Positions 1,345 to 51,560 of a DNA stretch of 51,560 nucleotides are shown here, piece by piece (position 1 is the stretch's first letter; every line of letters starts with the position of its first letter). A program made the translations under genes and the position numbers. The DNA lies in IMG/VR virus record IMGVR_UViG_3300032116_013558, positions 1 through 51,560 of that record; one strand, written 5' to 3'. Source of the DNA: a virus. The notes under the pieces are model-generated. The model was not told the origin of the DNA. It did not search any database and worked only from the letters and a program-made list of their open reading frames with translations.

Positions 1345-3818
1345 AAATTCAAATTTAATGTTAAAGAAATTGTTTGTTCGTTGTTTGTTTTTATTAGATT
1401 TCGGTTTTGTAACTTTTGGTAATAAATCGATGGTTGCGCAAATACATCACCTATTGCCAGTTTTATTTCTCCTTTTGGAAGTTTATGTAAAAAGGTTAAA
1501 TCTAATACATCTCTACTATTTTCAAAGATGTTTGGGTAACCCTGAAACCCTACTGCTGAAATTCTATCGCCAACTCTATTGTAAGTTATGTTAATAGTAT
1601 TTTTCTTTTTATGAATGTTTACTCCACTATTTAACACATAGTTTGATTGTCCCTGCAATTGTCTTTTCACACCATTCACTTCTACTTCTGAATTCATTAC
1701 CGAAGCGTTTGTGTAAAAATCAAACCAATCGTTTATTTTTTTACGAACTTCCAATTCAACACCATATAGGATAGCTGAATTAGGGTTTGTATAAGTCAAT
1801 AATAAGTTTGATGGAACTGAACCATCTGCTACGATTTGTTCAATTGGTTTGATAAAGTTCTTACCAAATAGAGAAAGTGAAATGTTCTCACCCACCTTTG
1901 GATACCATTCGTATTTAAGGTCTACATTATATATGTCAGATTTTTCTAACTTTGAGTTTCCTAATATTTGTGCGTTTCTAACGAAATCATAATAAGCAAA
2001 ATTAGCTACTTCTCTAAACTCCGGTCTTGCTAATGTTTTACTTAATGAAAATCTATACTTTGTTTTTTCTTCGTTGTATGAAAGATTTAGCGATGGTAAT
2101 ATATCCAAATATTTTCTATCTACATTTACCTTTTGACCACTAAAATCTGCGGTTGATACATTGAATAGGTTATACTCACCTCTTAATCCGGTGTTTAGTT
2201 TCCATTTACCAAATTCAGTATCATACATTGTATAAAGAGAACCCAAATCAAAATCGGCTGTGTATCTATCGGTGTTGTTTGTAATCTCATCTAACATATC
2301 AGTCGATAGATTACGGAATATTCTAGCATTAAATCCTCTAATTCTTTTTAGATAGCCACCACCTATTTTTATATCTCCTATTTGTTTGTTTATATTACCA
2401 TTAAAAGAGTTCTCATCCATCACACTCCAAAAACGATAGGTATCTCTCCATGCAGTTTGGTATGGTTCGTTTACTCCTAATGATTTTGTAATTGGGTTTA
2501 TTCGATAATCAGGTTGCTCTCTAAAAGTGTATGTGTATCCTAAATTGAAATCTAATGTTTCGATTTTACCATCAAATTGAGAACTAATTACTAAATTATT
2601 AATGTGATTTGATGCAGTAGATAAAACATTCTGAACATTATCAAAGTTATCACCATTACGGGTTAAGTATGTATCATCCTTTTGGTAGTTCACTAATGTT
2701 TTCCAACTATATCGATTTTCACCTAAATAAGTGAAATTAAATAAACCATTTGTGGAAAATCTTTTTGTAAATAAAACATCTTTGTAATTATACGCCAATT
2801 CACTTGATGATTGATAATCTTTTCTATCAATATTATTTATTGTAAATCCATTTCGTATTGTGGAACTAAATAATGAATTCCATTTACCTTTTGTATATCC
2901 AAATGATAATCCACCATTTAAGTTTGGAATAGATTGTAATTCATCGGTAGAGGGATTGGTAAGTAGTTTAGTGTAAGCTCTTTTATCACCATTACTACTT
3001 ATTCGGTATTTGTAAGTGGAAGGGAATGTGGAGGGGAAATCGGTAGGTTGAACTAACTTGAAATCTCTCAAAGTTGAAACCGAACCCCAACCACTTCCCA
3101 AAGATATATTAAAAAAGTTATCAGATACTTCTTTTGTAGTTATTTGGACTAATCCACCTGCCCAATCGCCTGGTTGATTTGCTGATGCTGATTTAGAAAC
3201 TATGATGTTATCTATTAGAGATGTTGGTATTATATCAAATGAAAATGCTCTTCTATCAGGTTCGGTTGATGGTAGTTGGGTTTTGTTAAGTAGAGCTGAA
3301 TTATATCTATCCGCTAATCCTCTTACTAATACAAACTTATCGTTTTGTATCGTAACCCCACTTACTCTTTTAAGTGCATCGCCCACATTTCTATCGGGTG
3401 TTTTTTTAATAAAATCAATTGATAACCCATCCGATACTACATTACTATTTCGTATTGTTCTTACTACTGCCGCTTCCGTTACCTTTTGAGAAACACTTCT
3501 TACGACAACTTCGGATAATTGTTTGGCATCATCTGGAAATAATATATCAAATTCAGTATCTCTATCAAACACCACCTCATTTGTATATTCCTTATATCCA
3601 ACGAATGAAGATTTGATTTGATACTTACCTTCTTTTAATACAATAGAGTATTTTCCTTCGGTGTCTGAAATTGTTGTAAAAACATCACTATTTGGGTTTT
3701 TAAAAGAAATGTGGGAGAAATAAAGTGTTTCCGATTTGGATTTTGTAACACCTTTGATTGTTACCTGCGAAAATAATAAATTTGGCAATAGTAACAACAA
3801 TAAAAAGAAACGATTCAT
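1341..3818 (-). CDS. TonB-dependent outer-membrane receptor
   Basis: This 825-residue protein has a Sec signal peptide (MNRFFLLLLLLPNLLFSQ). Residues about 20-100 form a carboxypeptidase-regulatory-like domain with the usual SDTEGKYSI and FVGYKEY signatures. A plug domain follows at about 110-235 (VGDALKRVSGVTI, LVRGLADRYN, IDNIIVSKSASANQPGDWAGG). The rest is a 22-strand-type barrel of alternating aromatic strands ending in TISLTLNLNL. Length and order match complete Bacteroidetes TonB-dependent transporters, though it is shorter than SusC proteins. It should import a scarce ligand using host TonB energy. Its gene is the first of a two-gene operon with the lipoprotein. I see no frameshift or missing domain. 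Alternatives to nutrient uptake are superinfection exclusion or a decoy receptor. Confidence 0.93.
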   Translation of the reverse strand: MNRFFLLLLLLPNLLFSQVTIKGVTKSKSETLYFSHISFKNPNSDVFTTISDTEGKYSIVLKEGKYQIKSSFVGYKEYTNEVVFDRDTEFDILFPDDAKQLSEVVVRSVSQKVTEAAVVRTIRNSNVVSDGLSIDFIKKTPDRNVGDALKRVSGVTIQNDKFVLVRGLADRYNSALLNKTQLPSTEPDRRAFSFDIIPTSLIDNIIVSKSASANQPGDWAGGLVQITTKEVSDNFFNISLGSGWGSVSTLRDFKLVQPTDFPSTFPSTYKYRISSNGDKRAYTKLLTNPSTDELQSIPNLNGGLSFGYTKGKWNSLFSSTIRNGFTINNIDRKDYQSSSELAYNYKDVLFTKRFSTNGLFNFTYLGENRYSWKTLVNYQKDDTYLTRNGDNFDNVQNVLSTASNHINNLVISSQFDGKIETLDFNLGYTYTFREQPDYRINPITKSLGVNEPYQTAWRDTYRFWSVMDENSFNGNINKQIGDIKIGGGYLKRIRGFNARIFRNLSTDMLDEITNNTDRYTADFDLGSLYTMYDTEFGKWKLNTGLRGEYNLFNVSTADFSGQKVNVDRKYLDILPSLNLSYNEEKTKYRFSLSKTLARPEFREVANFAYYDFVRNAQILGNSKLEKSDIYNVDLKYEWYPKVGENISLSLFGKNFIKPIEQIVADGSVPSNLLLTYTNPNSAILYGVELEVRKKINDWFDFYTNASVMNSEVEVNGVKRQLQGQSNYVLNSGVNIHKKKNTINITYNRVGDRISAVGFQGYPNIFENSRDVLDLTFLHKLPKGEIKLAIGDVFAQPSIYYQKLQNRNLIKTNNEQTISLTLNLNL

Positions 3819-3899: not shown

Positions 3900-4469
3900 T
3901 TATAAATCTATTGTTTTATCTATGTTATATTTCTTATAAAAATTATTAAGAATTTTCACCAAATCATTAATCATTTTCTGATGGTCTGATTGTGATTTCT
4001 CATCTCCCTTAGCGAAAGTTGTTTTAGGTAATATAGTATTAATTATATTTCTTGCTGCTGAACCTGCTACTGATAACTTTTCATCTATTGCTTTACTTTC
4101 TTTCCAAAGAATGCTAGAAAATTTCGAATATGCATATTTTTCAAACAAACGATTTTCTAATTTCTTAAATTTAGCAGTTTGGTCTCTCTTTCCAATATAA
4201 GCATCCTTTTCAGTTTCTAATTTTATCTGATGTGTCAATTCATGTATAACCGCTTGCTCAGGATCCATCATTCTATTTACATCAAATGAAATGTAAAGGG
4301 GTTTCATTGTTTTGGGATTGAACGTTAATGCTGCTCCACCCTTACCAACATTTCCAAACTTTACAGGCAAAGGAGTTACTTTTTCGTTTTTACACAATGC
4401 CTCATAATACGCTTTTATATTAGCGGGATTTCGTACACCTTCGTTTAATATGTTACCTAATTTTATCAT
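3900..4469 (-). CDS. HExxH zinc metallopeptidase-like protein with N-terminal capsid-targeting-like tag
   Basis: This 189-residue protein opens with MIKLGNILNEG, the start tag shared with its three upstream neighbours; ILNE|G fits a T4 gp21-type processing site. After the tag comes an alpha/beta domain with a zincin motif: H76-E77-L-T-H80 (from VIHELTHQIKLE), with acidic residues just downstream (E85, E87, D89) that could supply the third ligand. Glu77 would be the catalytic base. The start overlaps the upstream stop as ATGA. It is the last gene of a four-gene tagged operon. If the tag works as in T4, the enzyme would be packaged in the head and injected. The substrate is unknown, and an inactive structural zincin is possible. 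Confidence 0.62.
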   Translation of the reverse strand: MIKLGNILNEGVRNPANIKAYYEALCKNEKVTPLPVKFGNVGKGGAALTFNPKTMKPLYISFDVNRMMDPEQAVIHELTHQIKLETEKDAYIGKRDQTAKFKKLENRLFEKYAYSKFSSILWKESKAIDEKLSVAGSAARNIINTILPKTTFAKGDEKSQSDHQKMINDLVKILNNFYKKYNIDKTIDL

Positions 4470-5014
4470 CTTGGTTTTCCAAACATCATTTTAGTGTGTA
4501 TAGTTCCACCGATTTTTCTATCGTATGAACCATCTCCGTTCCATTTAAGTTCTTTTCCTTTTAAGGCCTTGCGAACAACATCTTCATCGGTAACAGGCAC
4601 CAATCCTTTACCCATAAATATATCTCTCATTTTACCGGATACTTCTACATAGTATCCACCACTCTTTAATTTATCTACCTGATGATTTACTGCTGCCGAT
4701 TTACCTGCCGAAGAACCATCATGTCCCAATGCAACAAACTTCTTACCGGCTGGTTTATATTTTGCTATTGTAGCTGCATCTATCTCATCATCACCATCTA
4801 CATCTATCACATCAAAGAAATCACCCTCATCCGGTAGGTCTTCTTTATCTTTCACATTAGAGTGTCCTCCAATTGGTTGATACGCAGTTGAAATCAAATC
4901 AAATATAATTCTTTTGAAACGGGGTAGTTCTGAACGCATTATTGGAGTCCACTTATTTTGTGGTATCTCAAATCGCTTATCTACTTCTGAAAGTATATCT
5001 TTTAATCGTATCAT
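4466..5014 (-). CDS. Tagged phage protein, possible GNAT-like domain
   Basis: I chose the ATG at 5012-5014, giving 182 residues beginning MIRLKDILSEV, because it restores the tag shared by the neighbouring genes and lies one base after the upstream stop; an ATG farther upstream (5050) would overlap that gene. ILSE|V is a candidate prohead-protease site. The rest contains AYQPIGGH, an acidic stretch (DVIDVDGDDEID), ALGHDGSSAGK, GGYYVEVSGK and a C-terminal RKIGGTIHTKMMFGKP. This pattern resembles acetyltransferase-like proteins I associate with T4-like cyanophages, which also tend to start with a packaging-type tag. I am not sure of the GNAT relationship. The aspartate run might bind metal. Confidence 0.55.
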   Translation of the reverse strand: MIRLKDILSEVDKRFEIPQNKWTPIMRSELPRFKRIIFDLISTAYQPIGGHSNVKDKEDLPDEGDFFDVIDVDGDDEIDAATIAKYKPAGKKFVALGHDGSSAGKSAAVNHQVDKLKSGGYYVEVSGKMRDIFMGKGLVPVTDEDVVRKALKGKELKWNGDGSYDRKIGGTIHTKMMFGKPR

Positions 5015-5015
5015 T

Positions 5016-5417
5016 CTATTCGTATGCTTTATTTCCATATTCATCACCAACTCTGATATTCACATCGCATATATCTTCTGGCCCTAAAAAAGTATGCATC
5101 CACTTAGGTAACATATTCATATAGTCATCTTTAATAACACGCCCTTTATATTTGTAATTATTCTCACCGTATGCAAAATCAACAGGCTTACCATCAATTA
5201 AATTCCATGCATGCTCAACCCATTTATATTTTCCATCTTCTAAAGGAACATAAACTTCTCCTTCAATATATTTGATATTTTTTCCTTTCTTTTTTAATTG
5301 AAAGTATTTTTGTCGAGCAACCTTATGGCACATGTGCTTATGTTTAACCTGTTTGCCACTAGCTCCGGTAAATGAGTAAAGTTTTGATTCTCTTAATATA
5401 TCTTTTAATCTAATCAC
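5016..5417 (-). CDS. Tagged phage protein of unknown function
   Basis: This 133-residue protein begins MIRLKDILRES, nearly identical in its first eight residues to the next gene downstream. ILRE|S fits the (L/I)-x-E cleavage pattern. The predicted mature part is basic in its first third (KQVKHKHMCHKVARQKYF, with two His, one Cys and many Lys). It then has an alpha/beta-looking region with KWVEHAWNLIDGKPVDFAYG, reminiscent of short domains that carry a conserved H-x-W-N pair, but I do not recognise the family. ATGA overlap with the upstream gene and one base before the downstream start show translational coupling. Packaging into the head is an inference from the tag. Confidence 0.55.
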   Translation of the reverse strand: MIRLKDILRESKLYSFTGASGKQVKHKHMCHKVARQKYFQLKKKGKNIKYIEGEVYVPLEDGKYKWVEHAWNLIDGKPVDFAYGENNYKYKGRVIKDDYMNMLPKWMHTFLGPEDICDVNIRVGDEYGNKAYE

Positions 5418-5746
5418 TTTTTTATTTGCTTGACGTAGTCAATTAAGAAAGCATCGGCAACCTTTTTAATTTGGTTCACATAATCAGGATCTTTTTCACT
5501 TCTAACCCGTACTGCCATTATTCCATTTCGGGTTAGTTTCAACGCAACCTTGCCTTCAGAATAGCCCAATGAATAATCTCTAACAGTTAGTGTTCCCCTA
5601 CCTAATACACCACCCATGTGTAATCCTAACATAACCTCTGCTCTGGCTATATTAGTCTGAGGGATTGCCGTCGCAGGAACGGATGTAACGATTTCGGTTG
5701 GAGTTTTAACTTTCGCTTCGTTCAATAAATCTTTTAACTTAATCAT
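5414..5746 (-). CDS. Tagged small phage protein of unknown function
   Basis: This 110-residue protein begins MIKLKDLLNEAK; LLNE|A fits the T4-type prohead protease pattern. The remainder looks like one compact alpha/beta domain with LTVRDYSLGYSEGKVALKL and RNGIMAVRVRSEKDPDYV, ending in a lysine-rich helix. No catalytic motif is visible. It is the first of four consecutive tagged genes (5746 to 3900) and follows the CsgG-like gene by only five bases, so it may be co-transcribed with it. Function unknown. Confidence 0.55.
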   Translation of the reverse strand: MIKLKDLLNEAKVKTPTEIVTSVPATAIPQTNIARAEVMLGLHMGGVLGRGTLTVRDYSLGYSEGKVALKLTRNGIMAVRVRSEKDPDYVNQIKKVADAFLIDYVKQIKK

Positions 5747-5751
5747 TTTTA

Positions 5752-6474
5752 TTAGTTTGTGAATATACCTTTTTTAATCATTCTATCTAAAATTCTAGCA
5801 CACGCAATATCCAATGCTTTTTTAGTAGCAATAGATATAGTTGATTGATTGAATTTAACTTCATCAACAGTTGCATCTGATAAAAGAGTTAATTCTCTAG
5901 TAGTTTTTGCTTCTCCCAAACCACTTGCTCCAAATACTACACCTGTTTCTGCATCGGTAAATCTAACTTGCAAACCGATACGAGTTACCATAAGGTTTTT
6001 AACACCATCTTTAAGGTTTACAGTTTCATCTTCGGATACCGAATAATCGTAACATTCGATTGTTACAAAGTATTTTGCTAAGTTAATCTTTCCTCTACCA
6101 TCTAATTTGTTTTCGGAAATGCCAGCTTGCGATGCTTGGAATTGCTTAACCATTCTATTCTTAATTTCCGTTTTATCTTCGGTAAATTTGAAACGATTAA
6201 GGTTTTCCAAATATTCCATCGAAATGTTAGCAACACCCAAACCTACCCTTTTTTCTTTTAATTCAGGATACATCTCATACATCTCATCACTAATACCGGC
6301 TTTTAGAATTTGAATTGGGATTTGTGGTCCATCATAATCTAAAAATCTTTCTATATCTATCGCGGTTTCAAAGGATGCTTTATATTGTTCTGTTTTAGTG
6401 CTTCCTATTGTTTGAGCAACAACCGCAACACTGCTTAACAAAAAGAAACTTAATAATACGAATAATTTTTTCAT
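5752..6474 (-). CDS. CsgG-like secreted protein (curli secretion channel family)
   Basis: This 240-residue protein has a Sec signal peptide ending in AVVAQ. Unlike E. coli CsgG (about 277 residues) it has no lipobox cysteine. Its middle and C-terminal part follow the CsgG/HfaB plan: a variable N-terminal half, then KYFVTIECYDYSV, VTRIGLQVRFTDAETGVVFGASG and a closing amphipathic helix (TKKALDIACARILDRMI). The Asp-x-x-Thr-Gly step in a beta strand is typical of the family. CsgG makes a nonameric outer-membrane pore, and CsgG-like genes have been annotated in T4-like cyanophages. It begins just after a terminator and is followed by the four tagged genes. A role in export or late lysis is inferred; no curli subunit or CsgE/F homologue was seen. 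Confidence 0.6.
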   Translation of the reverse strand: MKKLFVLLSFFLLSSVAVVAQTIGSTKTEQYKASFETAIDIERFLDYDGPQIPIQILKAGISDEMYEMYPELKEKRVGLGVANISMEYLENLNRFKFTEDKTEIKNRMVKQFQASQAGISENKLDGRGKINLAKYFVTIECYDYSVSEDETVNLKDGVKNLMVTRIGLQVRFTDAETGVVFGASGLGEAKTTRELTLLSDATVDEVKFNQSTISIATKKALDIACARILDRMIKKGIFTN

Positions 6475-6509
6475 ACATAGTTGAATGTTTAGTTATGTAT
6501 AAGTATAAA

Positions 6510-6535
6510 AAAAAGGAGAAAAACTTCTCCTTTTT
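6510..6535 (-). terminator. Intrinsic terminator (bidirectional) after the endolysin gene
   Basis: A perfect 11-bp inverted repeat (AAAAAGGAGAA / TTCTCCTTTTT) with a 4-base loop lies two bases past the endolysin stop. On the minus strand it ends in a run of eight T residues, as in a classical intrinsic terminator; the other strand also ends in T residues. It separates the lysis/envelope block from the CsgG-like operon. Confidence 0.85.
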
Positions 6536-6537
6536 AC

Positions 6538-7368: not shown

Positions 7369-7385
7369 ATTTTTTATTGTTTAAA

Positions 7386-7664
7386 TTATCCTAATTCTTC
7401 TTCTTGTTCCGCTTCTAATTTAGCTTTATCATGTTCGGATTTTCTATTGATATACTTATCAACTGAAGCAATACCGAATGAACCTAATGTGATTACTAAA
7501 AATCCATTAAAAATGTATTCGTTAATCAACAATTCTTTACCCATCCAACCGGTTATAAGATCTACAAACAATGCAATAACCATCATTGCAAAAGAAAGAA
7601 AACCTACGACTGATTTTTCATTTATATCGTTGTTATCTTTAAATAATTCTTTTATAAAACTCAT
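7386..7664 (-). CDS. Holin candidate, two-transmembrane protein
   Basis: I chose the ATG at 7662-7664 (MSFIKELFKDN), giving 92 residues; the longer frame adds ten residues overlapping an AT-rich leader. A short polar N-terminus (DNNDINEKS) precedes two hydrophobic segments (about residues 18-40 and 49-70), then a charged, glutamate-rich tail ending in EEELG. Size, two membrane helices and position 17 bases upstream of the endolysin gene support a holin role. No sequence family is certain. It could form the inner-membrane lesion that lets the endolysin out. Confidence 0.6.
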   Translation of the reverse strand: MSFIKELFKDNNDINEKSVVGFLSFAMMVIALFVDLITGWMGKELLINEYIFNGFLVITLGSFGIASVDKYINRKSEHDKAKLEAEQEEELG

Positions 7665-7710
7665 ATTTTTTAATTTAATTATTAATCGTAACAATCAGTA
7701 ACCTTTTTTA

Positions 7711-8361: not shown

Positions 8362-8367
8362 AGTTTA

Positions 8368-8691: not shown

Positions 8692-8702
8692 TTTATTGTA
8701 AT

Positions 8703-9071: not shown

Positions 9072-9072
9072 T

Positions 9073-9429: not shown

Positions 9430-9432
9430 ATC

Positions 9433-12620: not shown

Positions 12621-12621
12621 A

Positions 12622-14307: not shown

Positions 14308-14309
14308 TT

Positions 14310-21909: not shown

Positions 21910-22608
21910 TTATCCTATATAAGCATTTAATTCATATCCATTTTTCATACCATAAACCTGAATATGCAGTTGTTTTCTTTGTTCTTTTCCGCCTCTCAGC
22001 AATTCAATAGAAAATCTATTTGTTTTTCCTTCTGATGGTTTCTTTGGCCCAACACCTATTTTTGAAAACGCATCATCATTATTAATTTCAAATCCCTTTT
22101 TTTCAGCATAAGCTCTCGCAGCTTCAATAGCTGATGTATATGATTTGTGATATACTTCATAATCAGATTTTGCTTCGCTCATTGCACCCTTAAGTGTCAA
22201 TTTAGATTCAACTTTATTTTTAGTAAATACATTTTCTTTTAAGGAAGATACTTTTTGACCAAGTGGATGACCAATTGTCATTGATGTATAAAACGATATA
22301 GCATCTATAATTTCATATCCGTCCCATTTTGCTTTATTTGCAATTTCCATACCCTTCCTCTCTACTGCATTTTGGTATGATGTTTCACTCTTCGAATCTC
22401 CCTCATATTTTGCTTTAGGGAACATTGAATCTACTTTTTTAACTTCACTATGAAAATTAGCATCAGTTAAAGCAGCTTTTAGTATCTCTTTAACAGCCCA
22501 TTGATGAGTTGGAGTGCCCGCTTTAAAATCCTTTAAATAAGAATCTAAATCACTTTTTACTTTTTTGTTAAATGTAGCTGATTCTGTTAATATATTTTTT
22601 AATTTCAT
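21910..22608 (-). CDS. Tagged modular phage protein
   Basis: This 232-residue protein starts MKLKNILTESATF; ILTE|S fits the prohead-protease pattern. The middle is helical and lysine-rich. A second candidate site, AMSE|A, lies at about residue 145. The last 80 residues (IEAARAYAEKKGFEINNDD, VGPKKPSEGKTNRFSIEL, RKQLHIQVYGMKNGYELNAY) are a compact domain that resembles recurring modules in freshwater phage genes. The domain could be released by cleavage. Function unknown. It is 14 bases from the next tagged gene. Confidence 0.6.
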   Translation of the reverse strand: MKLKNILTESATFNKKVKSDLDSYLKDFKAGTPTHQWAVKEILKAALTDANFHSEVKKVDSMFPKAKYEGDSKSETSYQNAVERKGMEIANKAKWDGYEIIDAISFYTSMTIGHPLGQKVSSLKENVFTKNKVESKLTLKGAMSEAKSDYEVYHKSYTSAIEAARAYAEKKGFEINNDDAFSKIGVGPKKPSEGKTNRFSIELLRGGKEQRKQLHIQVYGMKNGYELNAYIG

Positions 22609-22622
22609 TTTATTTCTATTGT

Positions 22623-22916
22623 TTAGAATCCTATTGAGACTGTTTGATTATCAAATTCTATCCATCTAATTTTTAAAGAAATTAAATCTTTTAAATCTTG
22701 TGTATCCATTCTCCAATTTTTCTCTGACATTTTGATATCAACGATGTTACCATGAATACCATCCCAAATTGTATTAATCTTACCACCAAAAAACTTTACA
22801 AATTGTTGAACTTGCTTTTGTTTAGTAGAATCCAATTCTTTAAATTCAATTTCAGATGCTTCATTTAATTTAGCTTCTGAAATGTTTTTTACTTTTAATA
22901 ATTCTTTTAGTTTCAT
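22623..22916 (-). CDS. Tagged small phage protein
   Basis: This 97-residue protein begins MKLKELLKVKNISEAKLNEA, giving two overlapping cleavage-like sites (ISE|A and LNE|A) after a helix similar to the tags of neighbouring genes. The rest is a small alpha/beta domain with VQQFVKFFGGKINTIWDGIH and ISLKIRWIEFDNQTVSIGF. No known motif. It lies between the 232- and 667-residue genes with a gap of one base to the latter. Confidence 0.55.
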   Translation of the reverse strand: MKLKELLKVKNISEAKLNEASEIEFKELDSTKQKQVQQFVKFFGGKINTIWDGIHGNIVDIKMSEKNWRMDTQDLKDLISLKIRWIEFDNQTVSIGF

Positions 22917-22917
22917 C

Positions 22918-24921
22918 TTACTTACTAAATTGCGATATTACCTTTTTTTGAATAGGATTACCTGGTTTTCCAACTAATGCCGTTACAAAATCCATTCTAT
23001 CTTTTAAATTACCCTTTTTCAAAAATAGATATAGTTTGTTTGAATCTATATTATTTTTCTCTAAAAAGCCCTTAACTGCACTTGCTCTTGAAGCAGTTAA
23101 ACCTGCTATACCATTTGCATCTGCTGATAAATCTTCATGTATATGTTTATGCTCATGTACTCCACCGCATCCACAATCGTGATTTTCGTTACATCCACAA
23201 TCATCTCCAAGTTTACCTTCAGTTATTGATTCCTCCAAATTCCATTGTTTTTTAGTCATTATACTATGTCCACCGCCAGCTTTCATTACCCATGCGTATG
23301 CTTGACTACCCGAACTAAATGTCTTAACTAGTTTAGGCCCTGTTGGTGTCATTTCAAGACCAACATAAGGGCCGGATGCCCATCCTTCGTTTACTGATTC
23401 TTTGATTACGACAATTCCATTTTCATCACCTCTTTTGGCAGTTTTGATACCACCTTCAATTGAATCCAATTTATGTCTAACTTTTGATGAACCTTTTACA
23501 TTACCACTTTTATCCGATGGAACTAATGTTGCTGTAGTATCATCCATAGCAACAATCTTATAGTATTTACCACCATCAATACCTTTTAATCTAGTAAATC
23601 CTTGCCCCATAATTACCGAACCTACTTTTAAATCGGTTGGATATTTTGCTTCACTTAATGATTCATCAACAACTTTTCCCTTTTGAGTTAAGAACTTTTT
23701 AATATCATCTTGTGCGGTATAAGAAGCAGAACGGGCACCAGTAGTTTTACCAGTTCCGTAATCTCCTCTTCCGAATTGATAATCACCTTCAGAATCCTGC
23801 CATATTCCAACTAACTGAAATAGTTTTTTCTCATCGGAACTACTAAATGGAGCAAGTTTACCTTTACCTTTATCTAGTTTCATTCCATCTTCGTACCAAT
23901 CTTCAAAATCAACTGGGTCATCAAATAGCCAAGTTGGTAAATCTCTTACATTAAATGCCTCGTTTACTGATTCTTTAATTCGTGAATCACCTTTTATTTT
24001 TTTTACTAAATCATCAATTGAATCTACCCAAAAATCTTTTCCTCTTAATGGTTTTACCCACCAATCATCCCCACCGGCTTCATAATCCATCATAAAAGTT
24101 CCCCACGGCATACGGTCTACAAGTATATCATGTGAGTTTGAAGGCCCTGCTGATTTAAGTTCTATATTACCTACTTTAAGAACGAATCCTTTTTTATTAT
24201 TTTTTCTCCAAGTATCTCCAAGTTTACCTTCGTTTACCGATTCATTTCTTTTATCTAATGCAAAGTATATCTGATTTTTAACTTTTTGGAATGCATCGGT
24301 TGCTGCTTTTTGGTTTCCAACAAATCCCATTTCTAATCCAATTTCATTTGAACGAACACCTTTTTTAGCCAATGCCATAATTTGTGCCGCAATTGGTTTA
24401 GATACTACCTGAGTTGGAGTATCCACATGAATAACATGTTTAAATTCTTCCATTATGGTTTCATCTAATCCTAACTGAGCTTCTGCGTCTAAAATTTCAT
24501 GATAATCTAAATCCTTTAAATCATCTATAATTTGATTTCTACTTGCATTTGGGTTTTTAGATACGGCTGCTCCTACTTTTTTCTTAGCAAATGAACCACC
24601 TTTATCATACATTGCCATTATACCTTTAAAATGTGTATCATTAGGTGACATTTCAGTTAGGTTTCTACCATCTTCTGGTCCACCTATTACTGAGCCAAAT
24701 GCACCTTCCGCTCTCAATACACCTCTTATGATTTCTTTTAATCTTTCTTTAACGTGTGTTGGCAATCCTTTATGCTTTGTGGATGCAAAATCTTTCGCAT
24801 CAACTTTTTTCATAGTATCCGCTACCTTTTCCACTTCTTTCGATGGTGCTTCCATATCACCTTTTTGAGTAGCGTGAACCATACCCATAAATCTTTGTTG
24901 TGCTTTCGATACTGCTGGCAT
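22918..24921 (-). CDS. Polyprotein-like modular phage protein with DUF3008-like start
   Basis: This 667-residue protein starts MPAVSKAQQRFMGMVHATQK, a DUF3008-type opening. Repeated linkers of the form (K/D/E/N)ES(V/L/I)(N/S/T)E(G/A) occur at VNE 229-231, VNE 319-321, LSE 422-424, VNE 510-512 and ITE 566-568. Each is followed by Gly or Ala, with an LTE at 88-90 as well. Between them lie separate domains of about 55-105 residues. Two linkers lead into EGKLGD. The last segment has a Cys/His-rich patch (DCGCNENHDCGCGGVHEHKHIH, 574-595) that could bind metal. This design suggests a polyprotein cut into small head proteins. No enzyme motif. Confidence 0.7.
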   Translation of the reverse strand: MPAVSKAQQRFMGMVHATQKGDMEAPSKEVEKVADTMKKVDAKDFASTKHKGLPTHVKERLKEIIRGVLRAEGAFGSVIGGPEDGRNLTEMSPNDTHFKGIMAMYDKGGSFAKKKVGAAVSKNPNASRNQIIDDLKDLDYHEILDAEAQLGLDETIMEEFKHVIHVDTPTQVVSKPIAAQIMALAKKGVRSNEIGLEMGFVGNQKAATDAFQKVKNQIYFALDKRNESVNEGKLGDTWRKNNKKGFVLKVGNIELKSAGPSNSHDILVDRMPWGTFMMDYEAGGDDWWVKPLRGKDFWVDSIDDLVKKIKGDSRIKESVNEAFNVRDLPTWLFDDPVDFEDWYEDGMKLDKGKGKLAPFSSSDEKKLFQLVGIWQDSEGDYQFGRGDYGTGKTTGARSASYTAQDDIKKFLTQKGKVVDESLSEAKYPTDLKVGSVIMGQGFTRLKGIDGGKYYKIVAMDDTTATLVPSDKSGNVKGSSKVRHKLDSIEGGIKTAKRGDENGIVVIKESVNEGWASGPYVGLEMTPTGPKLVKTFSSGSQAYAWVMKAGGGHSIMTKKQWNLEESITEGKLGDDCGCNENHDCGCGGVHEHKHIHEDLSADANGIAGLTASRASAVKGFLEKNNIDSNKLYLFLKKGNLKDRMDFVTALVGKPGNPIQKKVISQFSK

Positions 24922-27027: not shown

Positions 27028-28119
27028 TTAATATTTTGGGCCCATATTGCCCTTTTTCATTGAATCAGCCCAAATTTGAAACGTCTTCTTTAAATCGGAA
27101 GGTAATTCTTTATCTCTAATTGTTAATGAACCTTGTGGGGAAATATGTGCAATAATTTTGTAATCACCATGTTCTTCTTCCGCTCTATTCCATATTGTTA
27201 AACCGTTTCCCATATATCCAGAACCGATGTCATATTTTTTTGCTTCCTCTACTCTAGAATGAATTGGTTTACCTATTACGGGTGTTTCTACAATTGAATG
27301 AACTATATCAGTTAATCTTCGCCCTACTGATTCTTTAAATAGTTTATTGATTACACTACCTGGTACATAATCAGGTAACATCTTATCCAAATCTTGTGGA
27401 GAAACGGCTTTTAATTTTTCAACTTTATCCGCAAAACCTTTCGTTTCAGAATGTTTTCTCATTCTATCTGCAATAACTTTGCCATCAACTTTTTTATCAG
27501 AAAACCCGGTTTGAAATTCTTTTAGTGATTCTGATTTAAATGGGTTAAACAATCCTCTACTATTTACTTCTTTTTCAGTAGATGGTGCAACTTTTGCGTT
27601 TTGCTGATGTTTGTGTTTAATCGGATTGTATTTTTCCAATTCATCAACATTAACATTACCATCCGCATCAGTTTTTACCTCACCATACTTATCATCTCCC
27701 AATCTTACAATACCAACTGTTTTAGTTCTTTTATTGTAAACTAAATCATCTTTTTTAAATTTACCTTCTTTTAAAAATTCTTCTTTAGATAAAACTCTAA
27801 TTTCATCAAACTTAATTTCGTTTGTTCCATATTCATGATAGTTTGATGATGCCTGTGAAATGAAGTTTTCTGCATTAGTAATATGGTCTTGAATCCAAGC
27901 AGGTATATCCTTTTCGTTTTCACCCATTTTGGCTTTTAATTCAGTTGCCATCTTAATGATAGTATCCAATGAACTTTGAGCCATTGAAACTTCGTGATCT
28001 TCCTCCTCTTTTACAACGGTCTCAACTTGTGGTTGAAATGCTCTTGCATAAGGGTTAGAAACAACCTGTCCTGGCTGAACACCCATACCTTTCATCAATT
28101 CTTTAAGATTCATATTCAT
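27028..28119 (-). CDS. Modular phage protein (363 residues), possibly packaged and processed
   Basis: The start is ATG-AAT-ATG; either Met1 or Met3 (MNLKELMKGM, a tag-like helix) is possible. Residues about 40-105 (HEVSMAQSSLDTIIKMA, DIPAWIQDHITNAENFI) are a helical module I have met in many phage genes. The last 70 residues (YDIGSGYMGNGLTIW, EEEHGDYKIIAHISPQGSL) form another recurrent domain, separated by SRVEE|AKK. Central Lys-rich linkers contain SLKE|F and KES-V. It may be cut into pieces like the 667-residue protein. No catalytic residues recognised. Confidence 0.55.
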   Translation of the reverse strand: MNMNLKELMKGMGVQPGQVVSNPYARAFQPQVETVVKEEEDHEVSMAQSSLDTIIKMATELKAKMGENEKDIPAWIQDHITNAENFISQASSNYHEYGTNEIKFDEIRVLSKEEFLKEGKFKKDDLVYNKRTKTVGIVRLGDDKYGEVKTDADGNVNVDELEKYNPIKHKHQQNAKVAPSTEKEVNSRGLFNPFKSESLKEFQTGFSDKKVDGKVIADRMRKHSETKGFADKVEKLKAVSPQDLDKMLPDYVPGSVINKLFKESVGRRLTDIVHSIVETPVIGKPIHSRVEEAKKYDIGSGYMGNGLTIWNRAEEEHGDYKIIAHISPQGSLTIRDKELPSDLKKTFQIWADSMKKGNMGPKY

Positions 28120-28123
28120 AATA

Positions 28124-29044
28124 CTACTTATATTTGCTTAATATTTTATATGACACTTCTGCCATTTTCTTTAATCCCATTTTTAACATATTCTCCTTAT
28201 TCACATTAGATAATCCATTGTAAATATGTAGAATTGCATTAGCGGTTTGAACATCCACCAACATTGTTTGTCCGGTTTTTTGGTCTTTTACTTTTGCTGC
28301 CGAATGGGAATCTACTATATTTTTTAAAGTATCAAGTATAGAACCCTCTTTATCATTTGCTTCATTTCTACCTAACTTATCCTTCATCTTATTCACATCA
28401 TCTTCCGAAGGTGCTCCATTAATATATCCATTAGGTAAAGATAATCCTGTTCCTATACCTCCTGGCAATCCTTCAGTATGCGGTGCTTTAATACCATACC
28501 CTTTTTTGTAATTTGAAAGGGTTTGTAATGCATTTTTTAATCGGTCTTGAAATAATTTTTTTTGTTCAGGTGATTTTGTAGCTGAAAGTTTACTTTGTAA
28601 TGCTTTTATTCTATTATTAAGGTTTTGTATTTTATCACCTTGCTCTGATTCCTTTAGATTTTTATATCCCTCTACTACTTTATTTATCGCCTCTTTTACC
28701 TGCTCCTTATTTAATCCTATTACCTTTATATCTCCATTTTCGTTTTGATAAAGAGCGTGTTTTAACCCAATTTCATTAAAGTAGGTCATCAGCTTTTCAC
28801 CAATCAACTTCCCCTTTAATTCTTTTGTTTGTGGTAAACCTTGCGCAACATGCTGAGGTTCTTCTCCTTCGGTTTTCCAACCTCCTCCGGCCGCTTTGTA
28901 TTGTTTGGCAGCCCAACCATTAGCATACGCAGATGGGTAAACATCGAATTTCTTCTTTGCCTGTGATACATAGTATTGCCACTTTGAGGGGTTAGTGGGA
29001 ACATTCTTTTCCAAAAATAAAGTAATATTTTCTTTCATATTCAT
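28124..29044 (-). CDS. Modular phage protein (306 residues)
   Basis: The gene begins ATG-AAT-ATG; Met3 gives MKENITLFLEKNV, a tag-like start with FLE|K. Residues about 18-60 (NPSKWQYYVSQAKKKFDVYP, SAYANGWAAKQYKAAGGGWK) are a well-conserved module found in many phages, close to the domains fused in the next gene. A long helical region with NNRIKALQSKLSATKSP and a C-terminal helical domain (QTANAILHIYNGLSN) follow. A promoter-like octamer lies eight bases upstream. Function unknown; a virion or packaged protein seems likely. Confidence 0.58.
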   Translation of the reverse strand: MNMKENITLFLEKNVPTNPSKWQYYVSQAKKKFDVYPSAYANGWAAKQYKAAGGGWKTEGEEPQHVAQGLPQTKELKGKLIGEKLMTYFNEIGLKHALYQNENGDIKVIGLNKEQVKEAINKVVEGYKNLKESEQGDKIQNLNNRIKALQSKLSATKSPEQKKLFQDRLKNALQTLSNYKKGYGIKAPHTEGLPGGIGTGLSLPNGYINGAPSEDDVNKMKDKLGRNEANDKEGSILDTLKNIVDSHSAAKVKDQKTGQTMLVDVQTANAILHIYNGLSNVNKENMLKMGLKKMAEVSYKILSKYK

Positions 29045-29077: not shown

Positions 29078-29830
29078 CTATGCGGGAGGGTTGAAATCTT
29101 TTTTACCACTTTTATCCCATCTTACTCTTATTGGCTTATCACCATCTGTCTTTTCACCGCCTTTTTTAGCATCTCCTCCGGCTTTTTGCGCGGCTCTCTT
29201 TCTATTAACAAAATTAGCTCTACCTTTTTTACCTAATTTATCTGCTGCTGCAGAACTTAAACATGCAGCATAGGCTTCTCCTTCTTCTCCTGCACCACAT
29301 TTTCCTATTCTCTCTCCTTTACTATTATATCTATCCCAGCCTCCGCCACCTTTACCACCCCACTTACCTTTACCAAACCATTTTCTAAGGTCTTCATTTG
29401 TCGTAAGTGAATGTGATGATGGTAATATATTAATACCAACTTTCTTACCCAAATAAATTGTTATAGGAGTTATTGGAATTGGAGATGGAACAAACTTAAA
29501 TGAAACTAAAAATAGTATTTTCACAACATCTTTAGATTGTGATTTTAAAAATCTTTTTTCTGCTTCCGATACTTCCTCTCCCATAATCATTCGTTGGAAT
29601 ATATGTAGAGCAACTATTGTTTCTTTCTTTTCCCTATCGGTAGCACTTTTAAATTCTTCCCAATTATTTTTTACGAAATGCTTTGTTTTTTCAAGCCAAT
29701 TTATCACTTTATTTTTTGTATTTGATACCAAATCTTCATTTTTTTCTCTACCTGCACAATGTGCTTTTTGAGAAAATCCTTTTGGATTATCACAATCAAT
29801 ACTATTTTTGTATTTGGTAGACCAACTCAT
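29078..29830 (-). CDS. Phage protein with KNSI/KGFSQKAHC module, LETM1-like helix region and WGGKGGGG tail
   Basis: I favour the ATG at 29828-29830 (MSWSTKYKNSIDCDNPKGFS), because the alternative at 29834-29836 (MYMSWST) overlaps a promoter-like octamer. About 250 residues: the N-terminal CDNPKGFSQKAHCAGREK module is common in phages. The middle (about 60-125, KETIVALHIFQRMIMGEE, FLKSQSKDVVKILFLVSFKF) resembles a LETM1-like helical region with a hydrophobic stretch. A glycine/tryptophan module (RKWFGKGKWGGKGGGGWDRY) and Cys-containing segment (GKCGAGEEGEAYAACLS) follow. The C-terminus is basic and disordered. Probably a structural or packaged protein. Confidence 0.6.
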   Translation of the reverse strand: MSWSTKYKNSIDCDNPKGFSQKAHCAGREKNEDLVSNTKNKVINWLEKTKHFVKNNWEEFKSATDREKKETIVALHIFQRMIMGEEVSEAEKRFLKSQSKDVVKILFLVSFKFVPSPIPITPITIYLGKKVGINILPSSHSLTTNEDLRKWFGKGKWGGKGGGGWDRYNSKGERIGKCGAGEEGEAYAACLSSAAADKLGKKGRANFVNRKRAAQKAGGDAKKGGEKTDGDKPIRVRWDKSGKKDFNPPA

Positions 29831-29855
29831 ATACATAAATATATGATTATCTTTT

Positions 29856-47042: not shown

Positions 47043-47314
47043 TAAAACTTTTCTTTTTTCTTAAAGTATTTGAGGATTATTATCTTACCAATAGAGCCAG
47101 ATAAAAGAAATAGGATAATTGTAACCCAATCACCCTTTAAAAAACTATCTACTGAATACGCGGTTGATGCAATCCAAAAGGCAGTTTGTATATTAAATAA
47201 TAAAACTGATTTTGTTATATCATTTTCAACTACCCATTTTATTTCTAAAACTTTAAATACGGCTAACGCTAATTGAGAAAATACAACAAATAAATAAACT
47301 AAAAAATCATTCAC
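47042..47314 (-). CDS. Small membrane protein, three helices
   Basis: This 90-residue protein has three or so hydrophobic segments (about residues 5-22, 37-52 and 62-80) and ends in a basic tail (KYFKKKEKF). It is inserted between asnB and the clamp-loader large subunit, linked to both by TAATG. No family recognised. It might be a membrane anchor or a lysis or exclusion factor. Confidence 0.5.
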   Translation of the reverse strand: MNDFLVYLFVVFSQLALAVFKVLEIKWVVENDITKSVLLFNIQTAFWIASTAYSVDSFLKGDWVTIILFLLSGSIGKIIILKYFKKKEKF

Positions 47315-48258
47315 TATTTAACTAATTGTATTACTGAAATAATAGTTGCCATAAATGTAATCTCCTTATCAACTACTAATGCATCTTTTGATGTTCCTTC
47401 CGCTAATGCAATAATAACATTTGCAGTATTTCCTTTTGCGTAATCATCCAACTTATCATATAGAAACGAATAAACATCAGTAAAATCTGAAATACGATTA
47501 TCAGCTACTAATTGTCTTATTACCATAAACTTATTCCTAACTTCATCTTTTGATTTTAGTATTTCTACTAATTTGATACGAAAATCAGAATCAACTATTG
47601 TAGCACTATCAGTTTTCAAAACACCATTAACACAAGCTAATTGACAGGTATTAATAATTTTTCTGATATCAGGATAATATCCATCTACAATAGGAACTAA
47701 ATCAGCCGGATTAAATTGTATATCCTCTTCTTTTAGAATTTTAGCAATTTGAACCGCTACATCTTTCTTTGTTGGGGGTACAATTTGAAATGATTGACAT
47801 CTACTTTGAATTGGAAGAATGATTTTCTCTATGTAATTACACGTCAAAATGAATCTACAATGCTTACTAAATGTTTCCATTAAGTTTCTTAACAACGCCT
47901 GTGCATTAGGTGTCATATAATCAAACTCATCCAATATAATAATCTTATATGGCTTGAATCCAACTCCACTTGCAAAGTTTTTCACTTTATTACGAACCGT
48001 ATCAACATTGTTCTCATCAGATGCGTTGATAATCATTACATCGGATTCGATATTTTTTACGATTAGTTTAGCGAGTGTTGTCTTACCTGTCCCCGCTTTA
48101 CCGAAGAAAAGTAAGTGAGGTATATCACCACTTTCGATATACCCCTTTACTTTTGCTTTGAGATTTTCATTACCTACATAATCATCTAACTTTGTAGGTC
48201 TATATTTCTCAACCCAAAGTGAGTGAACTTGTTCTTCTTGTTGTTCGAAAAAACTCAT
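47314..48258 (-). CDS. 44: Sliding clamp loader large subunit (T4 gp44-like, AAA+)
   Basis: This 314-residue protein has VEKYRPTKLDDYVGNENL, the typical start, Walker A FGKAGTGKTTLAKL, Walker B IIILDEFDYMTPNAQ, and the arginine-finger S-R-C box (IQSRCQSFQI). It is an AAA+ ATPase that, with gp62, opens the sliding clamp and loads it on primed DNA. Length matches T4 gp44 (319). It is 18 bases past the clamp gene stop. Confidence 0.95.
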   Translation of the reverse strand: MSFFEQQEEQVHSLWVEKYRPTKLDDYVGNENLKAKVKGYIESGDIPHLLFFGKAGTGKTTLAKLIVKNIESDVMIINASDENNVDTVRNKVKNFASGVGFKPYKIIILDEFDYMTPNAQALLRNLMETFSKHCRFILTCNYIEKIILPIQSRCQSFQIVPPTKKDVAVQIAKILKEEDIQFNPADLVPIVDGYYPDIRKIINTCQLACVNGVLKTDSATIVDSDFRIKLVEILKSKDEVRNKFMVIRQLVADNRISDFTDVYSFLYDKLDDYAKGNTANVIIALAEGTSKDALVVDKEITFMATIISVIQLVK

Positions 48259-48276
48259 ACTTTGAATTGTTTAAAA

Positions 48277-48993
48277 TTATGATAATTGAACTTCTACTAG
48301 GAAATATGATGAAGTGAATCCATCAACAGAGAAATCCACATTTGCTAATCCTTCTTTCGATACTTTTAATGTTGCTTTGTTAGCCTCTTTGTTAGCAGAA
48401 AGAATCTCTTTGAAATACTTTGCGGAGAATGAAATTGGTTTTACTTCTCCATCGAAACTATCATTAACTACCAACTCAACTCTATTAGTGTTGATGTTAG
48501 AATAACCAATAACAATTTTCAATTTACCTTTTTCCGTCAATACAGTAAAATTATCGATGTCACTCAACGCTGATTTTGCTTTGATAAACTTCTCAATAAA
48601 ATTACCATCCATATCAATACTGATACCGAACTCTGGTAATTGTTTTAAATCCGGTACATTTGGAATAACTGCTAAATCCGCTAATTGGTATTGAACGGTT
48701 GTAGCATCTGATGTTAGAGATAATGAAATCGGCTTTTCATCAACTTTTTTCAAAGTGATGTTTACATCATTTCCTAATACACCTAATAAACTTTTTAATG
48801 TGTTTGTATTGTAAACACCGACAGTAGAATCTTCGAAATCGAAATCTACCACACTAACTGAACCTAATACAGTCTTATCATCGGAGATAAAACGGGTTGT
48901 TAATGTTTTGTTTTCTGCTTTCCAAGAAACTGATTCAACTAATCCTGCCAAATTATACTTTGAGATAAAACGGCTTAAACGATTTTTGTCCAT
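48277..48993 (-). CDS. 45: Sliding clamp, DNA polymerase processivity factor (T4 gp45-like)
   Basis: This 238-residue protein has the size and two-domain beta-rich plan of T4 gp45 (228). Distinctive parts are VSVVDFDFEDSTVGVYNTNT, SALSDIDNFTVLTEKGKLKI and the final GLANVDFSVDGFTSSYFLVE. It forms a ring that tethers the polymerase; position between genes 43 and 44 supports it. A promoter-like octamer lies 33 bases upstream, so the clamp may be expressed separately from the polymerase. Confidence 0.9.
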   Translation of the reverse strand: MDKNRLSRFISKYNLAGLVESVSWKAENKTLTTRFISDDKTVLGSVSVVDFDFEDSTVGVYNTNTLKSLLGVLGNDVNITLKKVDEKPISLSLTSDATTVQYQLADLAVIPNVPDLKQLPEFGISIDMDGNFIEKFIKAKSALSDIDNFTVLTEKGKLKIVIGYSNINTNRVELVVNDSFDGEVKPISFSAKYFKEILSANKEANKATLKVSKEGLANVDFSVDGFTSSYFLVEVQLS

Positions 48994-49026
48994 AACGATT
49001 GTTTTAATTTTTATTTTTTATTGTTG

Positions 49027-49034
49027 TAAATATA
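49027..49034 (-). promoter_or_regulatory. Promoter-like octamer TATATTTA before the clamp gene
   Basis: ACACATATATTTACAACAAT on the minus strand lies 33 bases before the clamp ATG. It has TATATTTA, which fits TAnnTTTG with a final A. The A/T-rich leader AAAAATAAAAATTAAAAC follows. The site is in the 65-base gap between the clamp and polymerase genes. Confidence 0.4.
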
Positions 49035-49058
49035 TGTGTTTTATTTCGATTTTCCAAA

Positions 49059-51560
49059 TTAAAATGAGAAAAATTTATCAGATTTTGTAATTTTTAACTG
49101 TAAATGCCCCCATCCTAATGCTTTATAAAAATCTTCTAATTTATTCTGCATTTCATGCTCAAAAATCTTATCATAATCAATGTAATTTTTGATGAAAGAT
49201 TCTACCTCTTCCGGATCATCTGCTCCCTTAAAAGCTATTGTTTCTAATCCTAATGGGTTTTGTTTAAGATATACCCATTTCATTTTATCACCATTCTTCA
49301 TAGGTGAGTATTTAAACCCACAATTAAAGTGCTTCAACAATTGATTATAAGTCCAAGCAGCTTTAACATGCGCAGGAGTTCCTTTAAGGAATTGGAACAT
49401 CGCGCCTTTTGCGGGAGTATATTTTGAAAGTTCTTTTACCGAACTACTTTTAGCAATGTTATATGGTTTAACTAATGGAAGTGAACCTTTGAAATTAATA
49501 ATCTTTTCATCCATAGTTTCCTTTGTTTCACCCTTTAATATATCAATAAGGGTTTGCCTCATAAAATCTTTGAATGATTGAGGAAACGATGAACGAACTA
49601 CATCTAAACCTTTTACATCTAATCTATCTACCGGAACTCCATTTTCTGCAATAATCCATTGTGCATATCTTTTCTTTGCAATCCATAATCCGGCCCTAGC
49701 AACGAATTCTTTTTTAATCTGAAAACGATGTTTATCTTTTGGAACATTTATTAATTTTTCAGATAATATATCATAAAAATTATTGAGATAATCCTGTGTT
49801 TCTCCAGCGATACCATCTACTAATTTAGCAACTTCACTATCTTCCATTTGTTTCCAATTAGGATGCCTATGGTCTAATAATGGAACTGCGGAAAAGAATA
49901 CTGAATCAGTATCAATATAAATGTTGTAATCTGCTTCCTTTGTTCCTAACTCTTTATTGTATTTTATATTAGTCATATCGGCGGTGGATTTAATTACCGT
50001 TTGACCAGTAATCGTAACCGCTTCCGCATTATCAATATCGTAAAAACGAAATGAAGGTAATCCTAATACACCATAAAGTGAGTTAAGAAGAATTTTTTGA
50101 ACCAATTGTCTTTTCTTATAAAATGCATATTTTTCTTTATCACCCGCTTCTCCAAATTGCTTTTCTAGCTTTCGGAATTCAACCCTCTTTTGAAACCATT
50201 CATCCAATATTGCAGGAATACAACCGATTTTATCATTCCTATAAATTACACCATTTGAAGCAATAGAGTATCCACTATCGTTGAGAAACTCTTTGAACTT
50301 TTCTTTTGTAATTTGCTTTCCTTGTATTGAATAAGAATCATCCAATCCCTTTAAGTATCTTTGTATATCCCAATTATCAACCTTACCCATTTTGGTTTCG
50401 GGTGATATATTTAAGGTCATAATAATAGATGGATAAAGAGATGTTAAATCCAAGTCATATACCCAATCGTATTTACCAACGATAGGGTCTTTCACATACG
50501 CACCAATAAACTTTTCATCTTTTGCACTCTCATCGATTCCACCGGTTTCTCTCATAGAATCAATCATTCTATCTGAATCCTCTTTCTTCATTTTATTAGG
50601 TGCTACTAATCCTCTTTGGCGTAAGAAACATAAGAGTGCTCCCTCTAATGGTCGTGAAGTGAAAAAAACATCTTCATAGGCAACGTGTCCGGCGTGTGCA
50701 ATACCTCTACACAAATCGATAAATTGTAGCTTCTTATCCATATCTACAATCAACCTAACATCTTCCAAGTTATATTCGATAAACTTTTCTTTATCTTTTT
50801 CAAATAACTCATCCAAGTTTCCGGTGTATTCAACCTTACCTCTACCTAATTCAATCTTTGCGACCGTATCTAATCGGTAGTTGTCTAATTCAGTATAATT
50901 GTATTCTTTATATAGAACTAAATAATCTAATGCCGATACTCCACCAATAAACCATTTTTTTCTATAAGGTGAATAGAATACCTCTCTAATCGGAGATAAT
51001 CTTTTTGCTTGTCTTTCACCCAAAAGGTTTTTCAGACGATTAAATAGATAGGGAACGTCAAAGAAATCTATATTCCATCCGGTTATAATTGTTGGGGAAA
51101 TAGATTCGTATATATCTAAAAATTTATTCAGCATCTCCTTTTCAGTATCGAATGGAGCCACTAATCTATTTCCGGATTTGGATGGTTGTATTGTTCGATT
51201 CTTGTCTAATACTAATACATAATAAAAATCTTCAACTGAATCATGAACAGCGATTGATGTAATTTCGTTTTCTGCCTTTTCAGTATCAGGTAGACCAGAA
51301 TTCATTTCAACCTCAATATCAAAAGTAAGAACTTTATGCCCTTCGGAGGGTAAATCTGAATTGGTATATAAATCTACCAATACTCTGGTTATTTCAGGAA
51401 CATCAGATTCAAATAAAGATGAATCTTCTTTTTCGTATTTAAAAACCTTTGTTAATTTATCTCCATATATGGATGTCCATTCACCGTTTACCGCAGGTTT
51501 AAAAGCGTAACGTTGATATGGCATTGTAAAGTATCCCTTTACATCATCCCATATATGGAT
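49059..51560 (-). CDS. 43: DNA polymerase, family B (T4 gp43-like), 5' end beyond the window
   Basis: The frame is open to the window edge: IHIWDDVKGYFT precedes the first Met inside the window, with no stop, so about 833 residues are visible and the true N-terminus is missing. Exonuclease motifs are VLTFDIEVE, ITGWNIDFFDVPYLF and YNLEDVRLI. Polymerase motifs are A (YDLDLTSLYPSII), B (KILLNSLYGVLG) and C (YIDTDSVF). All catalytic acids are present. The C-terminus ends SDKFFSF, which may be the clamp-binding tail as in T4. It replicates the phage genome with the nearby clamp and loader. Confidence 0.96.
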   Translation of the reverse strand: MHIWDDVKGYFTMPYQRYAFKPAVNGEWTSIYGDKLTKVFKYEKEDSSLFESDVPEITRVLVDLYTNSDLPSEGHKVLTFDIEVEMNSGLPDTEKAENEITSIAVHDSVEDFYYVLVLDKNRTIQPSKSGNRLVAPFDTEKEMLNKFLDIYESISPTIITGWNIDFFDVPYLFNRLKNLLGERQAKRLSPIREVFYSPYRKKWFIGGVSALDYLVLYKEYNYTELDNYRLDTVAKIELGRGKVEYTGNLDELFEKDKEKFIEYNLEDVRLIVDMDKKLQFIDLCRGIAHAGHVAYEDVFFTSRPLEGALLCFLRQRGLVAPNKMKKEDSDRMIDSMRETGGIDESAKDEKFIGAYVKDPIVGKYDWVYDLDLTSLYPSIIMTLNISPETKMGKVDNWDIQRYLKGLDDSYSIQGKQITKEKFKEFLNDSGYSIASNGVIYRNDKIGCIPAILDEWFQKRVEFRKLEKQFGEAGDKEKYAFYKKRQLVQKILLNSLYGVLGLPSFRFYDIDNAEAVTITGQTVIKSTADMTNIKYNKELGTKEADYNIYIDTDSVFFSAVPLLDHRHPNWKQMEDSEVAKLVDGIAGETQDYLNNFYDILSEKLINVPKDKHRFQIKKEFVARAGLWIAKKRYAQWIIAENGVPVDRLDVKGLDVVRSSFPQSFKDFMRQTLIDILKGETKETMDEKIINFKGSLPLVKPYNIAKSSSVKELSKYTPAKGAMFQFLKGTPAHVKAAWTYNQLLKHFNCGFKYSPMKNGDKMKWVYLKQNPLGLETIAFKGADDPEEVESFIKNYIDYDKIFEHEMQNKLEDFYKALGWGHLQLKITKSDKFFSF

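Follow-up and report, generated by a model that had tools for sequence, protein, structure and literature searches.

Four consecutive genes on the minus strand of a 51.6-kb virus record (the window, the whole stretch of 51,560 nucleotides that was analysed) encode proteins that begin with a common ten-residue tag and continue into unrelated bodies. Very probably, the tag is a T4-type capsid-targeting sequence: taken as a whole, the observations are best explained by entry of the tagged proteins into the phage head, a cut by a gp21-type protease, and probable injection, with polyproteins serving as cargo too. The four genes, most of which overlap their neighbors shortly, occupy positions 3900-5746, where the initial annotation had reported four adjacent genes with these N-termini:

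3900..4469, minus strand: tagged gene 1, 189 aa, tag MIKLGNILNE (4440-4469); body with HELTHQ (HExxH), a putative zincin metallopeptidase
4466..5014, minus strand: tagged gene 2, 182 aa, tag MIRLKDILSE (4985-5014); body with a predicted GNAT fold
5016..5417, minus strand: tagged gene 3, 133 aa, GTG start, tag MIRLKDILRE (5388-5417); body with a Cys and EHAWNLIDGKPVD
5414..5746, minus strand: tagged gene 4, 110 aa, tag MIKLKDLLNE (5717-5746); body without an assigned function

Read from 5414-5746 down to 3900-4469, the protein starts are MIKLKDLLNE/A, MIRLKDILRE/S, MIRLKDILSE/V, and MIKLGNILNE/G, where the slash marks the expected cut. The residues after Glu (G, V, S, and A) agree with the small residue or Ser/Val described originally. 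Gene 2 has its true ATG at 5014, the listed open reading frame having started at an upstream TTG at 5050, and gene 3 uses a GTG start codon. Each body matched its own family only (E≤1e-4), so the four remainders are unrelated, as had been proposed. A strict register was defined as hydrophobic residues at positions 4, 7, and 8 with Glu at position 10, or a nine-residue form. This register, picked like the motif patterns after the data were seen, was found in 5 of the 66 window genes, four of them consecutive, compared with 17 of 4179 internal Met codons (0.4%) and a mean of 0.25 window genes when N-termini were residue-shuffled. The fifth gene starts at 22608 with MKLKNILTE/S. Similar starts had earlier been placed at 21910 and 22623; both positions are 3' ends, but the gene starting at 22608 fits, and the one starting at 22916 fits partly.

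A match over ten residues is short, and K, I, L, N, D, and E are common in AT-rich genes, but the 0.4% background set against four consecutive genes, the arrays present in relatives, and the more than 100 pattern matches among the matches listed leave chance resemblance a practically negligible probability. It is also very improbable that the similar starts represent a nucleotide-level element, such as a site for recombination or translational coupling where genes meet, and do nothing in the protein. Short overlaps do join most of the genes, and the cassette has evidently been shuffled between phages; however, the tags are written in different synonymous codons (K AAA/AAG, R CGA/AGA, L TTA/CTT/TTG, I ATA/ATT) and the DNA upstream of the four tags is without conservation, which together place conservation and selection at the protein level. 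Moreover, the site recurs within proteins at module borders, away from start codons.

The bodies were studied by structure prediction and homology searches. Tag residues were of low confidence in both AlphaFold-type models obtained (genes 1 and 2). The HExxH of gene 1 is invariant in 5/5 homologues and lies on helix 70-86 of a model with a pLDDT of 70, which gave no significant match to PDB folds. A homologue in Bacteroides phage EMB2 is untagged, with similarity from residue 18 on, and the same body is found inside a 605-aa protein of L158, directly after ELSE/G. The gene 2 model (pLDDT 81, with residues 1-12, part of them tag, below 50) had GCN5 as the best Foldseek match (E=4.2e-5, prob 1.00), and the body is predicted to adopt a GNAT fold. 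A glycine-rich loop, GHDGSSAGKS, precedes a helix at the expected place and fits the acetyl-CoA signature [QR]xxGx[GA] inexactly. Homologues of gene 2 are tagged in six contigs and carry another N-terminal leader in huge phages.

The gene 3 body had no family or PDB match, and searches of close relatives and of the phage collection returned no loci and no match, respectively. Gene 3 is weakly similar, including the Cys and HAW..DG, to tagged L207/L204 proteins (pairwise E=0.004, tag included); it is possibly a papain/transglutaminase-like enzyme, which is a guess. For gene 4, the close-relative search likewise gave no loci, and a tagged relative with 52% identity was found later in L162 (2590-2919). 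None of the four tagged genes was matched by PADLOC.

By its gene content, the window phage is T4-like. T4-type replication genes are present in the window:

47314..51524, minus strand: clamp loader, clamp, and DNA polymerase (T4-type), which place the phage

The polymerase of Microcystis phage Mel-JY01 (PP395634) is 50% identical to that of the window phage. The overlapping contig G001 matches the window at 100% identity across 26,238 bases and extends into a head module containing gp23, a gp22-like scaffold, a gp21-type protease (Pfam S77, E=2.9e-29), and portal-like and terminase (gp20 and gp17) genes. A gp21-like protease, which the initial annotation had advised looking for, is thus encoded by the same phage, as the identity extends over 26.2 kb, and the objection that no prohead protease exists is void. 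A prohead protease search of the window alone gave no match, and control genomes likewise gave none; the gene is missing from the window because the window is a fragment. A protein encoded at 142-3818 is of the TonB-dependent receptor type with Bacteroidota-style domains, and the outer-membrane genes make a host among the Bacteroidota plausible.

In relatives of the window phage, the tag is linked to head genes. The major capsid proteins of G008, G011, and G014 themselves start with it (MKINNILNE/S, MNTNSLLNE/S, and MDTNSLLNE/S, respectively), and relatives' major capsid proteins have, at the level of sequence, an internal LLSE/A or LVSE/A where T4 gp23 has FLTE/A. The major capsid protein of G001 itself, MANFNVKSLLE/A, fits the register more poorly, and a single, doubtful gene of that contig has the register. 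Tagged genes stand beside gp21 in G007, G008, G011, and G014. The head module of G007 contains four consecutive tagged genes, which adjoin the large terminase gene and are one gene away from the portal gene, and tagged arrays of about 6-8 genes are present in L156/L157, L162, and L164. A search of IMG/VR with the back-translated tag pattern listed more than 100 matches. Among the matches listed, gp17, gp20, gp21, gp22, or gp23 was present in 31 of 80 tag-pattern loci and in none of 80 polymerase-centred control loci of related phages. Three nearby tagged paralogues were also observed in the cultured isolate Mel-JY01 (60276-62718), with the starts MIKLKSLLQE/IISDRVWHLT, MIKLKSLLKE/IISDRVWHLT, and MIKLMSLVTE/TISDRVWHVT; the MIKLKSLLxE genes lie in tandem at 60276-61105.

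A short amphipathic N-terminal helix could have other uses, and the window cassette is outside any head operon, its neighbors in the window being outer-membrane-type genes and a lysis-like region, with no head genes. The tag might on these grounds have nothing to do with the head and act as a degron or as a signal for another compartment or complex (the membrane or a replication factory). Yet in relatives the major capsid protein itself begins with the tag, tagged genes adjoin gp20, gp21, and gp17, and the register is that of the T4 head signals, making such a role improbable. The shared head destination put forward in the initial annotation is supported by the head-gene linkage, by the tag on relatives' major capsid proteins, and by the gp21-type protease; each prediction of this reading that could be checked at the level of sequence was borne out. 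Chance, a DNA-level element, and a non-head signal were all considered and rejected on the evidence against each.

A different possibility is that the tagged proteins are parts of the prohead core or scaffold, which stay in the head or leave it, and are neither injected nor active in the host. Some tagged genes adjoining gp21/gp22, such as those with the starts MKKLKDLLKES (G008) and MIRLKDLLKES (G007), show conservation among relatives and lie close to where T4 has gp67/gp68, and part of the tagged set is therefore probably structural. Most bodies, however, are variable, patchy across lineages, and often enzyme-like (GNAT, NUDIX, zeta-toxin-like kinase, HExxH), which is how injected effectors look. 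The 185 distinct tagged bodies in the loci examined form about 90 families, including NUDIX (E=4.7e-14), zeta-toxin-like kinases (E=1.6e-6), and HExxH proteins. We consider a core or scaffold role for the whole set unlikely, and return to cargo of the head as the preferred reading.

Bodies that are found behind tags also occur within multidomain proteins, where the border usually lies directly after [LIVMF]xE. This motif was within three residues of the module border in 48 of 69 placements compared with 15% in the control; with the stricter start (one residue or less), the values were 33 of 55 placements compared with 6%, in most of 17 families, the placements being not independent of each other. 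The tag and the internal [LIVMF]xE site are thus interchanged on the same bodies. The window encodes six further proteins with a tag or with modules that recur in relatives:

21910..22608, minus strand: tagged two-module protein, 232 aa, tag MKLKNILTE/S (22582-22608); second module after AMSE/A (residue 145)
22623..22916, minus strand: small protein with an extended leader, MKLKELLKVKNISE/AKLNE/ASEIE, which fits the register partly, with sites further in
22918..24921, minus strand: putative head polyprotein, 667 aa; N-terminal DUF3008, then five linkers
27028..28119, minus strand: probable cargo/core protein; modules common to tagged and multidomain proteins of relatives
28124..29044, minus strand: probable cargo/core protein; N-terminal module recurs within multidomain proteins of relatives
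29078..29836, minus strand: probable cargo protein; DLRKWFGKGK module from residue 147, after TTNE/

The second module of the protein at 21910-22608 is the sole module behind the tag in L162, L163, L164, and G011, and follows SVTE/A in L233. The body of the small protein at 22623-22916 is found behind a short tag in L164 (MIKLTQLNE/ASEVQ) and internally in L082 (KESINE/ASKID). In G007 the tag is followed by the DLRKWFGKGK module alone, and in L156 this module comes first in a tagged protein; the DLRKWF body had no match in the phage collection. The protein at 27028-28119 and one encoded at 168070-169773 of G007 share the N-terminus MNMNLKELMKG..P, resembling some major capsid protein starts of the lineage (MDLKKLMNGANPQ); this start may represent another kind of head leader, one that lacks Glu.

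The 667-aa protein at 22918-24921 contains several modules, among which DUF3008 is the only recognisable domain; a DUF3008 protein stands alone, annotated as a virion protein, in the record of cyanophage S-SCSM1. The linkers, counting down, are NESVNE/G (after nt 24229), KESVNE/A (23959), DESLSE/A (23650), KESVNE/G (23386), and EESITE/G (23218). Linkers of the form ES(V/L/I)(N/S/T)E/(G/A) thus occur five times in this protein and not once in the 16,108 residues of the remaining window proteins (mean of shuffles, 0.0005). One module follows NESVNE/ in the window and MKLINLLKEQKVNE/ in L082. A contig scan with the start of the polyprotein gave no match. The simplest reading, which the linker sequences suggest, is that of a head polyprotein cut by the prohead protease.

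The huge phages carry what may be a second label. In phages of 600-700 kb, homologues of gene 2 start with MVMKHLKAFE/E or MKNKYISSYKIFE/A, and neighboring genes in LR745206 share the style of this label (MKYLKTFE, MKYLKKYKLFE). Starts of this style were found in 9 of 66 ORFs compared with 1 of 208 internal methionines in one 50-kb stretch of LR745206; a second 50-kb stretch was not clearly enriched (3/64 compared with 5/249), and a stretch of LR756501 had one such start in 45 ORFs. MKYLKxFE-type starts were present in 66 ORFs in 50 viral loci, and adjacent genes with MKYLKxFE or MKYLKxYKxFE were observed in L297 (LR745206, 550-600 kb), L322, L371, L306, and L344, which represent huge phages and other large viral contigs. 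That these starts are head labels is a guess made by analogy.

The principle of head-targeted internal proteins is already known from T-even phages, in which it is textbook knowledge that internal proteins vary but carry a common signal (PMC3012670, PMC12373910). The claim that such a cassette is undescribed therefore holds in part: the literature searched contained no description of large arrays, of cargo polyproteins, or of such a system in this lineage. New by the same measure are the presence of such genes in this environmental T4-like lineage, the array size, the enzyme-like cargo, the apparent polyproteins, and the cargo common to differently labelled phages. In the T4 record, ipII and ipIII start with MKTYQEFIAE/A, gp24 with MAKINELLRE/S, and gp22 with MLKEQLIAE/A. 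Within the ten-residue T4 tag, published work names residues 4 and 7 as the main targeting positions and residues 8 and 10 as those for processing (PMC9026906). Like IPI, IPII, and IPIII of T-even phages, the window proteins have a tag of ten residues, hydrophobic at 4, 7, and 8 and with Glu at 10; it has the same length and key positions as the T4 sequence, which upholds its original description as a T4-like capsid-targeting tag. They also share with T-even internal proteins unrelated, variable, small bodies, accessory genes, and a gp21-type protease. They differ in the tag letters (MI[KR]LKD[IL]LxE compared with MKTYQEFIAE), in arrays of up to about eight genes, in the apparent polyproteins, and in the recognisable enzyme folds, and the bodies have no recognisable relatives among T4 internal proteins in the libraries searched. 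The T4 sequence nearest to MIRLKDILRE/S is the gp24 leader, MAKINELLRE/S, and gp24 is a shell protein, not cargo. The T4 ADP-ribosyltransferase Alt is an enzyme carried in the head and injected. The window cassette would resemble it in supplying a head-carried enzyme, but no ADP-ribosyltransferase was identified there.

Many head proteins of phiKZ and SPN3US are cut after Glu by the prohead protease and injected (PMC5694885), but their propeptides are mostly longer than 100 residues, in contrast to the short common tag seen here. Polyvalent proteins are multidomain phage proteins, assembled from enzyme domains, that presumably function early in the host (PMC5512222); their processing has been proposed to depend on their own zincin domains, whereas the module borders described here match the prohead protease consensus. 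The NMNAT of S-SCSM1 (ORF91) starts with MKSFLQFLKE/A, in the same register as the window tag, and mass spectrometry found it in virions purified with CsCl, carry-over not having been excluded by the authors (PMC9602691). It offers an enzyme behind a same-register N-terminus, but as a single gene and in a cyanophage; with two convincing tagged genes in S-SCSM1, the NMNAT is one example and not a statistic, and the second same-register protein (ORF30) is not among the annotated virion proteins.

Homology of the parts and experiments on T4 suggest how the tag would act in the window phage. The ten-residue tag would bind the scaffold core during head assembly, and the tag-bound protein would be enclosed in the prohead. 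The gp21-type protease would then cut after (L/I)-L-x-Glu, freeing the body inside the head before DNA is packaged. Some tags have a large or charged P1' residue (E, I, K) and may therefore stay uncut. The freed body would probably be injected with the DNA and act early against host defences or metabolism, and the four genes would form a variable cargo cassette. In polyproteins of the same lineage, an internal [LIVMF]-x-E/small site would take the place of the N-terminal tag, and the pieces would be separated by the same protease. Since the three internal proteins of T4 all inhibit type IV restriction enzymes (PMC12373910), anti-defence is the leading candidate role for the variable cargo. On a wider view, to which we give a little better than even weight, a large uncultivated T4-like lineage fills its heads from a combinatorial arsenal comprising dozens of cargo modules, each of which is addressed either through a ten-residue label or as one segment of a polyprotein that the prohead protease divides during maturation; other lineages, including 600-kb phages, would put different labels (MKYLKxFE) on partly the same cargo, such that cargo and label are exchanged independently.

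The tag provides a sequence-only handle on proteins that phages probably carry into cells, nearly all of the body families in the loci examined being without assigned function, and the proteins it marks can serve directly as a list of anti-defence and takeover candidates encoded by environmental phages. Should the polyprotein reading be correct, a phage prohead protease also processes a cargo polyprotein, for which no description was found in the literature searched. The tag could also serve for loading chosen proteins into phage heads.

Several other loci in the window were recorded. The receptor-type protein at 142-3818 (plug, OMP_b-brl_3, and carboxypeptidase-regulatory domains) is followed by a lipoprotein-like gene. 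This pair is also present in contig G007 (73% identical DNA) and therefore belongs to phages; receptor exclusion or altered uptake are guesses as to its role. A run of secreted or outer-membrane-type genes at 5752-14963 (signal peptides, a C-type lectin domain, Lipoprotein_16) surrounds a GH19 endolysin and small holin/spanin-like genes and is largely conserved in G005. Two tandem paralogous methyltransferase-like genes, 409 aa each, are located at 42599-45036 and share a 400-base stretch of about 71% identical DNA. By eye from the translations, the region 15814-47042 is dense in glycosyltransferase-like, epimerase-like, FkbM-like methyltransferase, asparagine synthase-like, and SGNH-like genes.
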